Assembly: GCA_017650255.1 (NCBI GenBank) | Contig: JAGCFG010000052.1 | Location: 1 to 10,317, forward strand | Direction: 5' to 3' | From: Alphaproteobacteria bacterium | Lineage (GTDB): Bacteria; Pseudomonadota; Alphaproteobacteria; RF32; CAG-239 | DNA length: 10,317 nucleotides | Shown: in pieces, positions 5,202 to 10,218 of the stretch | Numbering within the stretch: position 1 is the stretch's first letter | How the letters are laid out: each line of letters opens with the position of its first letter | Translations under genes and position numbers: made by a program | Notes under the pieces: generated by a model | What the model saw: the letters and a program-made list of their open reading frames with translations, nothing else | Databases searched by the model: none | What the model was told of the DNA's origin: nothing

Positions 5202-6356
5202 ATGAAAATGGGCAGATTGAAAAGCAAAATTATCTTAAAACGCGCACTTCTGATATGTTGCTGCATTGCAATCGGATGGTTTGTCAAAGGACGCTTAACT
5301 CCCCCGATGATGATGGGTGCGGGCGGAGCATTGGGAGACCCATATGTTTTGGTAGAAACCGTTGCTATGGAAGATGTTACCCCTTTTCAAAATGTCATCG
5401 GCCATGTCGAAGCTATAAACTATGTTGCATTACGACCGCAAGTTAGCGGATATTTGGAAGAAAAAACTTTCGAGGAAGGTTCACACGTCAAAGAAGGCGA
5501 CATCCTTTTTGTAATCGAAAAACAACGCTATCAAGCCACTGCCGATTTACGTGCGGCTGAACTTGATTCTGCTCGTGCCAGCCTTACCAGAATTGAAAAA
5601 GACTATAATCGTCAAGTATCTTTGAACAAACAAAAATATGCCTCAGAGGCTAGACTAGACGAAGCTTATGCCGGTTTGTTGCAGGCACAGGCCGCCGTTA
5701 AACAGGCCGAGGCCAACTACGAACTTGCAAAAATAGATCTCGAGCACGCTGTTATAAAAGCTCCTTTCACCGGCAGAATTGGCAAAGCTAAAATTACCGA
5801 AGGCAACTATGTTGGCCCATCGACCGGCATTTTGGCCTATGTTGTCCAGATGAACCCTATAAGAATTAACTTTGCTTTGACCGACAAACAGATAACTGAC
5901 ATCATCCAAAGTGGATCAGAAAACAAGCATGTCAATGCTCGCATCAAATTACCGAATGGCAATATCATACGCATGACTTCGTTTAAGGAATTTATGGAAA
6001 ATTCCATCGATACCAACACCGCAACCGTCGCCGTTTATGCCGAATTTGAAAATGCTGACGAAATCTTAGTTCCCGGTAGCTATGTTAACATGGATATCAG
6101 CTCCGGTTTGCCTCAAAAAGCTTTGTCTGTCAACCAGTCTGCAATTGGGCAGGACGAACACGGCAACTATGTTCTGACTGTCAACAAAGAAGGCATTGTC
6201 GAACAACACAGAGTAGAACTCGGCGATGTTTTTGGTTCAAGACAAGTTGTAAAAGCCGGCTTAAAGCCAGGCGACCAGGTAATTATCCAAGGCCTGCAAA
6301 AAGTTGCTGACGTCAAAAAAGTTAGAGCCGAAAACATAAAACCGGAGGAAGAATAA
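5202..6356 (+). CDS. RND efflux periplasmic adaptor (membrane fusion protein, AcrA/MexA type)
   Basis: This 384-residue protein is the periplasmic adaptor that links an RND pump to an outer-membrane channel. A single hydrophobic segment at about 11-28 (with three Cys, but no proper lipobox) anchors it to the inner membrane. The first half of the lipoyl domain is at about 76-105 ([20 protein letters not shown] then [10 protein letters not shown]). The alpha-hairpin is at about 108-180, with Ala/Glu/Gln-rich heptads. The second lipoyl half is at about 186-215 ([20 protein letters not shown]), and beta-barrel and membrane-proximal domains run to about 375. The tail is acidic. The length is usual for the family. 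The pump gene follows after two bases, with its ribosome binding site inside the end of this gene, so the two are one operon. No outer-membrane factor or TetR/MarR regulator is beside it; the pump may use a TolC-like channel encoded elsewhere. Substrate cannot be read from sequence. Confidence 0.95.
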
Positions 6357-6358
6357 GA

Positions 6359-9300
6359 ATGTTTTCAAAAATTTTTATTGAGCGTCCCCGCTTTGCAATA
6401 GTTATTTCTATTGTTTTATTTTTGGCTGGTATAATTTCCGTATTTTCTCTTCCTGTTTCACTATATCCGCAGGTAACCCCTCCGACAATTACCGTTTCTG
6501 CTATGTATCCCGGAGCCAGTGCTGAGGTTTTGGCCAACACTGTCGGTATTCCTTTGGAAGAAGCCGTCAATGGTGTTGAAGATATGCTCTACATGGAATC
6601 AACCTCCGATGCTGCAGGTTCCTATCAGATGACAATCACATTCAAAGTCGGTGTAGACCCTGATATGGCGCAAGTAAAAACCCAAAACAGAATTCAACAA
6701 GCAATCTCTAAAATGCCGTCAGAAGTTCAGCAACAAGGCATAACCGTATCGCGCCGTTCCAGCGATATATTGGGTTTTTTGATTGCCCGCTCTCCAAATG
6801 GCACTCTAGACGAGCTTCAGCTTTCCGACTATGTTCAAAACAACATCAAAAAGAACTTGATAAAAGTTAACGGAATAGGCGAGGTTAATGTATATTCTCC
6901 ACCATTGAGCATGCGTGTTTGGCTCGATGCCGACAAAATTACGGCCTTAAATTTGCCAACTGCATTGATTGTTGCCGCTATCAAAGGACAAAACATTCAG
7001 CCATCAATCGGCAAAGTCGGCGCCATGCCCGGCGATGGTACACAACAGATGGTTTATACCTTGCAAACAACAGGACGCTTAAACAAAGTAGAAGATTTTG
7101 AAAACATTATCATTCGCACCAACGAAGAGGGCGGTTTAGTAAAGTTGAAAGACATTGCAAAAGTAGAGATAGGAAAAGAAAGCTACCGTGCAAAAGCCCA
7201 ATTTGACGGCGCTCCGTCGGTTGCTATTGCCATCAACCTTTTGTCCGGTGCAAATGCCATTAATGCCATGAACAACCTGCGTGCCGAAATGGCTCGTCTG
7301 CAAAAAATGTATCCGCAAGACTTCGAGCTTATTGTCGCTCACGACGCCACAGACTACATCAAAACTTCTATCGAAGAAGTTGTCATGACTTTGGCACTCA
7401 CCTTTATTTTGGTTATATTTGTGTGCTATATCTTTTTGCAGGACTGGCGCTCAACCCTCATACCGTCATGTACGATTCCTGTTTCCATTTTTGCTACTTT
7501 TGCAGTTTTGTTGGCAATGGGTTTCAGCCTCAACATCTTGACTTTGTTCGGTCTTGTTCTGGCAATCGGTCTTGTGGTAGACGACGCCATTGTTGTTGTT
7601 GAACGCGTTTTGTTCCTTATGGAAGACGAAAAACTCACCCCGAAAGAAGCCACAATAAAAGCCATGGAACAGGTTTCCGGCGCAATTATCGCAACAACTT
7701 TGGTGTTGTTGGCAATTTTCGTACCGATTGCTTTCATCGGCGGCATTACCGGCAGAATATACCAACAATTTGCCATCTCCATTTCTGCCGCGGTGTCATT
7801 CTCGTCTCTAAACGCACTGACATTGTCTCCGGCCTTGTGTGCAACCATCTTAAGACCGCTAAAACCATATACTCATGGTCCGATGTTTTGGTTCTCAAAA
7901 ACTTTGGATAAATCCAGAGACAAATATTTGAGCATTGCCAAATTTGCCAGCCGCAACGTCAGCGTAATCGGCACAATTTTTATTTTGATAATAGTCCTCA
8001 TTTGCGGACTTTTGAAAATCAGCCAAACCAGTTTTCTCCCCGACGAGGATCAAGGCGTATTTATGGTAGATCTCCAGTTGCCCGAAGGTGCCTCGTTTGA
8101 AAGAACGGAAAAAGTCACTCGTCGCATTGCACAGTTTATCAAAGACCAAAAAGGCATTTCTCATGTTATGAACCTCACCGGTATCAGTATGATTAGCGGT
8201 AGCGGCGAAAATGTTGGCTTTATGGTTGCCATTTTGGAACCATGGGCAAAAAGAAAATCTGCCGAATTGCTCTCTACCAACATTATGAACAGATCAAAAA
8301 TGGCCATTTCCGCCTCAACCCCTGAAGGCAATATCAATATGTTTGAAATGCCGGCCATTATGGGTTTGGGCATGAGCAACGGAATGGACTTCAGGCTCCA
8401 ATCACTCGACAGCAGTGATCCGCACGAGCTTGAAATGGCTCTCATGATTTTGCTCAAAGCAATGAATACATCGCCATATTTGATGTATGCTTACTCTACC
8501 TACAACGCCCAAACACCGGAAATTTTTGTGGAGGTCAACCGCGAAAAAGCCGAGTCTATGAAAACATCCATAGGTAATATATATTTAACATTGGGGCAAT
8601 ATCTCGGCTCGTCATACATAAACGATGTCAACTTTGGTACACAGGTTAACAAAGTTATTGTCCAGTCCGATTGGCAATTTCGCAAAGATATCGACAGCAT
8701 CAGCAAGCTCTATGTCCAAAATAACGAAGGACAAATGGTTCCATTGGGCGGTATGATAAGCCTTAACAAAAAACTCGGTCCTCGTGCCATTACACGTTAT
8801 AACCAATATCCTGCGGCCTCAATCACTGCCATTGCCCGCCCCGGAGTCAGCACCGGAAAGGCCATGGACGGTATAGAAGCACTTGCCGCAAAAGTTTTGC
8901 CCAAAGGCTATGGCTATGAGTGGTCAAGCATGAGCTATCAGGAAAAATCTAACCAAGGAACAATCGGCTCACTAATTTTGTTGGCGGTCGTTTTCGCCTA
9001 CCTCTTTTTGGTTGCACAATACGAAAGCTGGTCAACTCCGGTTCCGGTTTTGGCTTCGGTTTCGATTGCGATGGTAGGCGCTTTGCTTGGCTTGTTCATC
9101 CACGGCTTGCCGCTTTCGATATATGCGCAACTGGGCTTGATTTTATTGGTCGGCTTGGCGGCTAAAAACGCGATTTTGATTGTCGAGTTCTCCAAAGAAG
9201 AACACGAAAGAGGCTCTTCTATTGCCAAAGCTGCAATGGTCGGCCTAAGAGAACGTTTCCGCGCGGTTTTAATGACGGCATTTACATTCATTTTGGGTGT

Positions 9301-9475
9301 TTTGCCGATGGTGGTTGCCAGCGGTGCCGGCGCCAACAGCCGTATTGCAATCGGTGTTCCGGTATTCTACGGCATGTTGGTCGGAACAGGTGTCGGCTTA
9401 ATTTTGATTCCGATGCTATATGTTCTCTTCCAAACCACAACCGAAAAACTGATAGCAAAATTCGCAAAAAAATAA
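6359..9475 (+). CDS. RND (HAE1 family) inner-membrane multidrug efflux pump, AcrB type
   Basis: The proton-driven pump of 1038 residues, normal for AcrB/MexB relatives, exports hydrophobic or amphiphilic compounds from membrane and periplasm. The start [20 protein letters not shown] is typical, with TM1 at about 10-30. Further TM helices lie at about 340-500 and 868-1023, separated by two large periplasmic loops. Proton-relay residues are present: D408-D409 in [12 protein letters not shown] and K936 in [13 protein letters not shown]. The family motifs [20 protein letters not shown] (39-58) and [10 protein letters not shown] (559-568) are intact, so it should be functional. GGAGGA (6344-6349), nine bases before the ATG at 6359, is a strong ribosome binding site lying in the adaptor gene's end. 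The stop codon at 9473-9475 falls inside the left arm of the cloverleaf element at 9472-9589, so the C-terminal end may have been set by that element. Substrate is unknown. Confidence 0.96.
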
Positions 9476-9589
9476 ATGTCATCGCTCGTTTTTCCTTCAG
9501 AAAAACGTCCAGCGATCTTCGACTTTTTAAACAAAAGCAGAAGATGCCATGAATTTTTCGTTTTCACGAAAAATAGGCATGACATTTAT
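9472..9589. other. 118-nt cloverleaf element: outer stem enclosing three contiguous hairpins
   Basis: Outer stem ATAAATGTC (9472-9480) pairs perfectly with GACATTTAT (9581-9589). Arm A, 9481-9516: ATCGCT/AGCGAT, a 3-nt bulge (9508-9510), then CGTTTTTC (9487-9494)/GAAAAACG (9500-9507) with loop CTTCA. Arm B, 9517-9543: CTTC/GAAG, a 2x2 internal loop, then CTTTT/AAAAG with loop TAAAC. Arm C, 9544-9580: ATGCC/GGCAT, a 4x1 internal loop, then ATTTTTCG (9553-9560)/CGAAAAAT (9567-9574) with loop TTTTCA. The arms abut one another and the outer stem with no unpaired junction base. It begins at the pump's last codon and contains its TAA. There is no U-run after it on the + strand, so it is not a normal terminator for the pump. 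On the - strand seven T overlap and follow the end of the outer stem. It may be a palindromic mobile repeat or a structured RNA; which is open. Confidence 0.8.
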
Positions 9590-9627
9590 ATAATATTCAT
9601 CTCTAAAAAAACAACAACACAAAAATA

Positions 9628-9653
9628 CCCCCGAGCCAAAATAAACTCGGGGG
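9628..9653 (-). terminator. Terminator of the rubrerythrin gene
   Basis: CCCCCGAG (9628-9635) pairs with CTCGGGGG (9646-9653), 10-nt loop. On the - strand it is followed by TATTTTTGTG, a T-rich tail; on the + strand the tail CAAATATTAAAT is poor. It lies 25 bases past the rubrerythrin stop and is the most GC-rich hairpin in the window. It could still weakly slow rightward transcription from the pump operon. Confidence 0.85.
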
Positions 9654-9678
9654 CAAATATTAAATCAGATTAAAAATC

Positions 9679-10218
9679 TTAAAACTGCTCTTGCAATTCA
9701 AAGAAATAAGCTTGCGGGTGGTCGCAGACCGGACATTTTTCCGGAGCCATCGGGCTTTCTACCCTGTGACCGCAATTTGCACATTCCCAAATAACTTTTG
9801 TCGGACGAGAAAAGATTTTTCCTTCGCACAAAGATTTGAGCAAAGCGTTATATCTTTCTTCGTGACCTTTTTCGATTTTTCCGACCATTCTGAACAAATT
9901 GGCAATTTTTGTAAAGCCCTCTACATCAGCATCTTTTGCCATACGCTCATACATATTTGTCCACTCAAAATTTTCTCCATTTGCAGCATCTTTAAGGTTG
10001 TCCATTGTAGAAGGAACTTCACCGTTGTGCAAAAGTTTGAACCAAATTTTTGCATGTTCTTTTTCGTTGTTTGCGGTTTCTTCAAACTTTGCAGCAATAA
10101 TATTATAGCCTTCTTTTTTGGCCTTAGATGCATAATAGGTATATTTGTTTCTTGCTTGCGATTCGCCGGCAAAAGCTTCCATCAAATTCTTCTCGGTCTT
10201 AGAGCCCTTAAGTTCCAT
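9679..10218 (-). CDS. rbr: Rubrerythrin (diiron peroxidase with C-terminal rubredoxin domain)
   Basis: A 179-residue cytoplasmic protein that reduces hydrogen peroxide to water using electrons passed through its rubredoxin domain; it is common in anaerobes and microaerophiles. The ferritin-like four-helix domain (about 1-135) carries diiron-ligand motifs: [12 protein letters not shown] (E19), NNEKEHAK (E52, H55), [10 protein letters not shown] (E82, E85) and IEKGHEERY (about 116-123). The rubredoxin-like domain (about 140-179) has C146-x-x-C149-G and C162-P-V-C165 as iron ligands, in W-E-C-A-N-C-G and K-C-P-V-C. Length is usual for classical rubrerythrin and no ligand seems missing. The ATG at 10216-10218 is preceded at seven bases by AGGAG (10226-10230). 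It converges on the efflux operon and is transcribed alone within the window. Identification is firm. Confidence 0.97.

Follow-up and report, generated by a model that had tools for sequence, protein, structure and literature searches.

The element at positions 9472-9589 of the window, i.e., the whole stretch of DNA analysed (10,317 nt), represents a single copy of a repeat that is dispersed in the genomes of gut and rumen Alphaproteobacteria. Judging from its sequence, it is composed of two homologous units of about 50 nt in inverted orientation rather than of one RNA cloverleaf, and it is likely to represent one head-head (tag-outside) dimer of the REP type, similar to BIMEs and REPINs and non-autonomous.

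Fold of the element and its locus

The element is located between an efflux pump gene and a convergent rubrerythrin gene, where the following features were recognised:

6359-9475, plus strand: upstream AcrB-type efflux pump gene (open reading frame; PF00873, 982.5 bits)
9472-9477, no strand: left half of an extra outer pairing ATAAAT/ATTTAT, partner 9584-9589; holds the pump stop codon
9478-9527, plus strand: REP-like unit 1, arm A plus tail (match to model R1, 67.3 bits; fold)
9478-9482, plus strand: GTCAT tag and stem start of unit 1 (fold)
9483-9486 with 9511-9514, plus strand: stem of unit 1, CGCT with AGCG (fold)
9487-9494 with 9500-9507, loop 9495-9499, plus strand: hairpin of unit 1 (fold)
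9508-9510, plus strand: unpaired TCC of unit 1 (fold)
9517-9527, plus strand: tail of unit 1, CTTCGACTTTT (fold)
9517-9543, no strand: arm B, i.e., the inverted tails 9517-9527 and 9533-9543 with a 5-nt spacer at 9528-9532 (fold)
9533-9583, minus strand: REP-like unit 2, arm C plus tail, inverted (match to model R1, 55.8 bits, found twice; fold)
9583-9579 GTCAT and 9578-9576 stem GCC, minus strand: start of unit 2, followed by hairpin, unpaired bases and a tail that ends at 9533
9584-9589, no strand: right half of the extra outer pairing ATAAAT/ATTTAT (local, from the flank test)
9626-9655, minus strand: terminator-like hairpin on the rubrerythrin side (terminator scan)
9679-10218, minus strand: downstream, convergent rubrerythrin gene (PF02915, PF21349)

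A sequence-only reading had claimed a three-arm cloverleaf at this place, and the predicted fold agrees with it: an outer stem and three directly adjoining arms meet in a four-way junction without unpaired bases. The minimum free energy (MFE) is -39.8 kcal/mol for RNA of the plus strand (z -7.3), -44.4 kcal/mol for RNA of the minus strand (z -7.0) and -29.9 kcal/mol with DNA parameters (z -8.0), and in each of the three cases none of 200 dinucleotide-preserving shuffles matched the fold energy. The perfect junction is confirmed in this way; the assignment of its bases is ambiguous, however, as the AT pairs at the junction fit either the outer stem or arms A and C, and the MFE and centroid structures disagree about them. 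Arms A and C, described in the same reading as alike, are indeed related, but as inverted copies of one unit (own-genome matches G000:C104:9478-9527:+ and G000:C104:9533-9583:-, contig C104 being the window).

The outer stem and the middle arm B exist because the units stand in inverted orientation. At the core of the outer stem, the pairing GTCAT/ATGAC is formed by the GTCAT ends of the two units, and arm B, CTTCGACTTTT / AAAAGCAGAAG, is formed by their tails; as ends of the inverted units, neither provides independent evidence. Past GTCAT, complementarity in 32 inverted pairs was at the level of shuffled flanks, and the ATAAAT/ATTTAT pairing was therefore rejected as a part of the repeat. 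In line with these observations, the complete cloverleaf is predicted as the MFE structure in 4 of the 34 non-redundant inverted pairs as RNA, the present element among them, and in 2 of the 34 with DNA parameters, counts that depend on author-set, overlapping thresholds; in these models it is no general property of the inverted pairs. The Rfam search gave no match at E ≤ 1 inside 9472-9589 and five sub-threshold matches toward the terminator side, and the terminator scan reported no terminator-like site within the element.

With respect to the pump, the copy of the repeat starts 3 nt past the stop codon TAA (9473-9475), and this codon falls inside the ATAAAT side of the extra outer pairing. 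Stretches around the rubrerythrin gene were compared with those of 12 relatives of the genus, where the pump 3' end is present in three loci (G001, G008 and G012), all with additional genes in the pump-rubrerythrin interval. Model R1 found units at one of the 13 rubrerythrin loci, namely the element's own, together with a weak match in L208 (E 0.055). The pump of G001 (96% identity over 72 residues) ends at the identical codon and lacks the element, and the stop codon is therefore the gene's own; that the element serves the pump in a dedicated way is unlikely. By eye, G008 and G012 carry a hairpin and a T-run behind the pump in the element's place. Elsewhere in the window, the adjacent minus-strand ORFs 570-1109 and 1221-1784 are 45% identical (E 7e-53) and have no Pfam match. 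Behind them stand terminator-like repeats that are near-identical to each other (538-570 and 1190-1222, respectively); the ORFs are a tandem gene duplication that includes the terminator.

Structure and covariation of the unit

The unit begins with GTC and continues with a stem strand AT-SSCT, a variable hairpin of 7-8 bp, an unpaired TC(A/C), the second stem strand and CTTC/CTAC, after which comes a T-rich tail; thus, 6 bp of stem are separated by the conserved unpaired TC(A/C) from a further 7-8 bp. GTC itself is near-invariant, and the base before it is T in 52%, A in 26%, C in 20% and G in 2% of 181 units, both units of the window being preceded as TGTC. Additional stem types, GTCATTCCT..AGGAATCTG, were seen in L065, L129, L131 and others, with an equal bulged design and some of them preceded as CGTC. 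These further types suggest that the repeat family is wider than model R1.

Both helices of the unit covary. In an alignment of 36 units, double-sided changes were found on 11 of 14 pairs, with 116 double-change cells against 34.4 after shuffling; 96.7% of the cells pair, and a shift of the partner by one column lowers this value to 46-53%. Because these 36 rows had been gathered by requiring a 3 bp stem, the test was repeated on units that had been picked by their tag and tail, with no selection for the stem, and all four stem pairs were formed in 42 of 51 units, as compared to 15.4 when the 3' strands were re-dealt. A second unit alignment, fitted to model R1 and made of the best 150 of 209 matches (80 loci, 127 distinct sequences), contained 369 double-change cells vs 105.5 in shuffles; the number of pairs with a double change and of further pair types showed no excess over shuffles. 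In this alignment the first stem pair is A-U in 127 of 127 units and the second U-A in 123, the other 4 having C-G.

G-U and U-G pairs occupy 18 of about 1587 paired cells of the unit stems (hand-summed, second unit alignment) vs 62 of 861 in 40 tRNAs from the same loci. A constraint acting on RNA only should tolerate G-U, so that two covarying helices with almost no G-U point to a constraint at the level of DNA. Template switching inside hairpins as a source of mutations would be an alternative cause of the rarity of G-U.

Occurrence of the units

The sequence-only reading had expected dispersed copies with compensatory changes, and such copies are numerous. BLASTN with the 118-nt element gave 26 places at E ≤ 1 in its own genome, which is 79% complete, and model R1 gave 33 unit matches there. 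Across the taxonomic family, matches were present in 21 of 64 genomes, 17 of them with at least five units and the highest with at least 94. Their distribution is patchy within genera: the genome with at least 94 units (G088) has four congeneric species with 0. In a sample of the class (142 genomes, stricter filters), matches were confined to the own genome and a single weak one in G144, a genome 67% complete. The exact unit pattern occurred in at least 105 stretches in named genomes; among the matches listed, 104 of 105 were titled Alphaproteobacteria, Rhodospirillales/Rhodospirillaceae or proteobacterium, and the sample titles were largely rumen and gut. The host bacteria belong to the gut and rumen lineage RF32/CAG-239 in GTDB. 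Units are more alike within genomes than between them (0.668 vs 0.596), the difference of 0.071 being above the maximum of 0.025 reached in 300 shuffles over 32 genomes.

One exact unit pattern had 0 matches in viral contigs, and a phage origin of the units was rejected on that basis. A contig filed as Candidatus Gastranaerophilales (L111, CAJOPF010000097.1) matches L056, from the alphaproteobacterial genome G083, over its first 253 bases; since the flanks agree without mismatch outside the unit gap of the query, it is probably misbinned.

Inverted pairs and unequal stems

Among 67 neighbouring unit pairs within 150 nt, the head-head arrangement is the commonest (39 pairs), with a spacer of at most 15 nt in 33 of the 39; single units make up 72 of 114 clusters. 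The new detail of this family is that inverted pairs never had identical stems among those typed. Typing succeeded for 74 of 77 distinct head-head pairs, and 0 of 74 had identical 6-nt stems vs 19.8 by random pairing; after clustering, which left 39 pairs, the counts were 0 and 10.0. Same-orientation neighbours had equal stems in 29 cases and different stems in 15, and many of the equal ones are probably tandem copies. Of 18 tail-tail pairs, 11 had different stems and the remaining 7 were not typable. Cross-complementarity between the two stems of a pair was 4.64 of 6 positions vs 4.98, below all of 3000 random re-pairings (67 pairs), as a consequence of the same unequal-stem rule.

The rule may in part be inherited with copied dimers, an effect that clustering to 39 pairs lessens and does not remove. 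In the predicted structures, both local arms are kept in 10 (RNA) or 17 (DNA) of 34 non-redundant dimers, and at least 10 pairs are formed across the units in 12 (RNA) or 6 (DNA) of them, a class that mixes long hairpins with branch-migrated junctions. As many dimers appear to fold partly across the units, the block to branch migration would be incomplete, which counts against a strictly structural reading of the rule.

Genomic context and turnover

Units lie mostly outside genes: 20 of 150 are within ORFs of at least 100 aa, as compared to 115.5 for randomly chosen places in these loci. With regard to the neighbouring ORFs, the setting was convergent for 30, co-directional for 57, divergent for 17 and at an edge for 26 of the 150 units, vs 4.2, 14.3, 7.8 and 8.2, respectively, for random places. 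The median distance to a gene 3' end was 145 nt, vs 95 nt for random intergenic places.

Orthologous sites were compared in six species of one genus over a syntenic block, parA-rsmG-mnmG-mnmE, whose genes were assigned by eye. G092 carries units at two intergenic sites of the block and the other five species carry none, with one sub-threshold partial match in the G014 stretch (E 0.059); elsewhere in these genomes, G014 has 22 units, G028 41, G069 63, G078 8 and G085 none. The species are only 68-79% identical over the block, so that gain and loss of units are indistinguishable and exact borders are out of reach. None of 222 joined-flank queries yielded a clean empty site; they returned diverged paralogues, e.g., L030 vs L038 (77%) and L096 vs L197, in which the start of the copy is still unit-like. 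No insertion with exact borders or a target duplication was seen in the species comparison or the joined-flank queries. Together, these data indicate that unit copies are mostly extragenic and variable between species at orthologous sites, and we infer that the repeat is mobile.

Several further arrangements were observed. Seven type IV pilin-like ORFs of one genome (JAFUSA, isolate RGIG4773; L125, L126, L134, L138, L145 and, with two genes, L146) contain an in-frame head-head dimer in the leader region, which adds about 36 residues before GRSMIEMLGVLA; the three of these ORFs scanned against Pfam are PilS/Bundlin, and a similar ORF in G028 has no dimer. Pilin leaders are cut off, and the insert may therefore be harmless. 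Among tandem ankyrin-repeat genes (L085, G070:C13:1-9000, and the cluster L113, L116, L123, L159, L160 and L192 of isolate SIG44), several have a single inverted unit 6-7 nt past the stop codon. A different dispersed repeat of about 150-200 bp, which is numerous in G092 and also has some copies in G078, stands close to units in L094/L290 (G092:C22, around 1650-1890 and 5300-5460).

Search for a mobilizing enzyme

The Y1_Tnp family (PF01797) is that of the RAYT and IS200 transposases. No match to it was found in the element's own genome (79% complete), nor in 10 of the 17 unit-rich genomes, this one included, and the matches in G014 and G028 are fragments. Y1_Tnp was present in 7 of 17 unit-rich vs 17 of 47 other genomes (p 0.77), i.e., without enrichment, and 1 of 30 Y1 loci had units nearby (L231). 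Given this lack of association at the level of both genomes and loci, RAYT/Y1 was rejected as a partner of the units. In L231 (G062:C51), located at the end of a contig, a Y1-type transposase ORF (104-469) has a head-head dimer (591-691) as its neighbour. No transposase was seen in the neighbour-gene survey, which covered 105 loci and the 9 ORF clusters with at least four members, all 9 judged by their protein starts and 4 proteins by Pfam; the neighbours most often near units were type IV pilins and, at 6 loci of a single genome, tandem ankyrin-repeat genes.

Relationship to known REP systems

By analogy, the element is of an already known kind, the REP head-head dimer known as BIME or REPIN; the claim of the earlier reading that it is unlike a REP is not supported, since it is a pair of REP-like hairpins. 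Going by the text descriptions, the closest known system is that of the CGTC-tagged REPs of Alphaproteobacteria, a superfamily with the families CGTC-1 to -4 (Di Nocera et al., 2013; PMC3733652). These REPs are described there as having an unpaired terminal tag CGTC (or TGTC, CCTC), a stem that starts with AT..AT and is unbroken over 8-9 bp, and a tail that is mostly CCA; they are also reported to lack a dedicated transposase. The units share with them the tag ending in GTC and the AT..AT stem start, and the window units also the 4-5 nt loops. Head-head dimers prevail in both, both reside in Alphaproteobacteria, neither has an associated transposase gene as far as described, and the preference for heterodimers is common to the present units and several CGTC families. 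By the same descriptions, they differ in the stem (6 plus 7-8 bp around the unpaired TC(A/C) in the units), the tail (CTTC/CTAC), the presence of A before GTC in 26% of units, clusters that are not rare here and the absence of any homotypic dimer among the 74 typed. As the stem is not unbroken and the tail is not CCA, the repeat is set apart by these descriptions from CGTC-1 to -4 and is a related variant of the CGTC REPs; bulged members of the CGTC type possibly escaped detection, going by the same text (PMC3733652).

REPINs are regarded as mobile DNA of miniature size (Bertels and Rainey, 2011; PMC3116915). Like them, the element consists of two inverted units with a spacer and predicted hairpins, and its copies are extragenic and dispersed; unlike REPINs, which are described as tied to RAYT transposases, it has no associated RAYT gene and its arms are unequal. 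In Escherichia coli, the BIME is described as two REPs in inverse orientation, with three REP types combined as the unequal pairs y-z1 and y-z2 and a conserved stem bulge that TnpAREP requires (PMC8266576). Inverse orientation, unequal pairing and a conserved stem bulge are thus common to both, whereas the E. coli REP has the tag GTAG, another sequence and TnpAREP, and the present genome has no Y1 match. A resemblance to Rickettsia palindromic elements had also been pointed out. In this regard, the CGTC-1 and CGTC-4 REPs of R. conorii are equated with RPE-6 and RPE-4, and longer elements of the RPE-1 type are described as other insertions (PMC3733652, section 6 for the former); compared by description only, the likeness holds for the GTC end of the tag and the AT..AT start and fails for the stem and the tail. 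RPE-4 and RPE-6 can be located in frame inside genes, as the dimers here are in the pilin leaders of one genome. Overall, the REPIN-like build of the element is well supported, and its way of moving is what we infer.

Proposed model and alternative explanations

We propose that a trans-acting enzyme would recognise the unit as a single-stranded DNA hairpin with its tag and bulged stem, that dimers would be copied into new, mostly extragenic sites, and that many of them would decay to single units. If the two inverted units were equal, their junction would be free to branch-migrate and they would make up one long palindrome; unequal stems could hinder merging by branch migration, each arm would stay recognisable, and the pair may be less exposed to palindrome removal. 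A more specific version, namely that the family is an orphan, bulged-stem branch of the CGTC type, still spreading with the help of a mover other than Y1/RAYT, and that its heterotypic rule is mechanistic (ends that can be told apart, or an obstacle to branch migration) and not a by-product of copying, is tentative and, as a whole, rather doubtful.

The fold alone would be compatible with a structured RNA (an sRNA or a riboregulator) that has the four-way cloverleaf as its defining structure, a possibility also raised in the sequence-only reading; the perfect junction and the low energy in the window fit this idea. We rejected a single structured RNA as the main reading and consider it extremely unlikely: arms A and C are homologous to each other in inverted orientation, so few dimers have the cloverleaf as their MFE structure, neither the outer stem nor arm B covaries independently, many units stand singly, Rfam has no match in the element and G-U pairs are rare. 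The same rarity of G-U, the lack of a terminator-like site, the distance of units from gene 3' ends and the poor conservation of the whole fold weigh against a transcript-end element that protects 3' ends or stops transcription on both strands, behind the pump and the rubrerythrin gene. Its stable RNA fold on both strands, the excess of convergent settings (30 convergent and 17 divergent vs 4.2 and 7.8) and the hairpins with T-runs behind the pump in G008 and G012 speak for such a role, which we judge improbable; a transcript-end effect may still arise locally as a side effect. Host functions such as binding of chromosomal proteins or packaging have been proposed for REPs and BIMEs, and the extragenic, dispersed units with their conserved tag and unpaired bases could be sites of this kind kept for the host. 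As 43 of the 64 family genomes have no match, congeners of species with dozens of units among them (a count in which the stricter filters of the search may lose weak matches), this explanation seems very unlikely.

A non-autonomous mobile repeat, a possibility already raised in the sequence-only reading, emerges as the most likely nature of the element, on the grounds of its dispersal and covariation and of a fold energy that shuffled sequences do not reach. A striking fold that is easily mistaken for a new structured RNA is, at this locus, a pair of repeats. The heterodimer preference of REPs, for which PMC3733652 sees no obvious explanation, is made testable by the unequal-stem rule. Species with dozens of copies stand beside sister species without a match, and their genomes measure 1-2 Mb, which makes it practical to look for the mover by comparing gene content.
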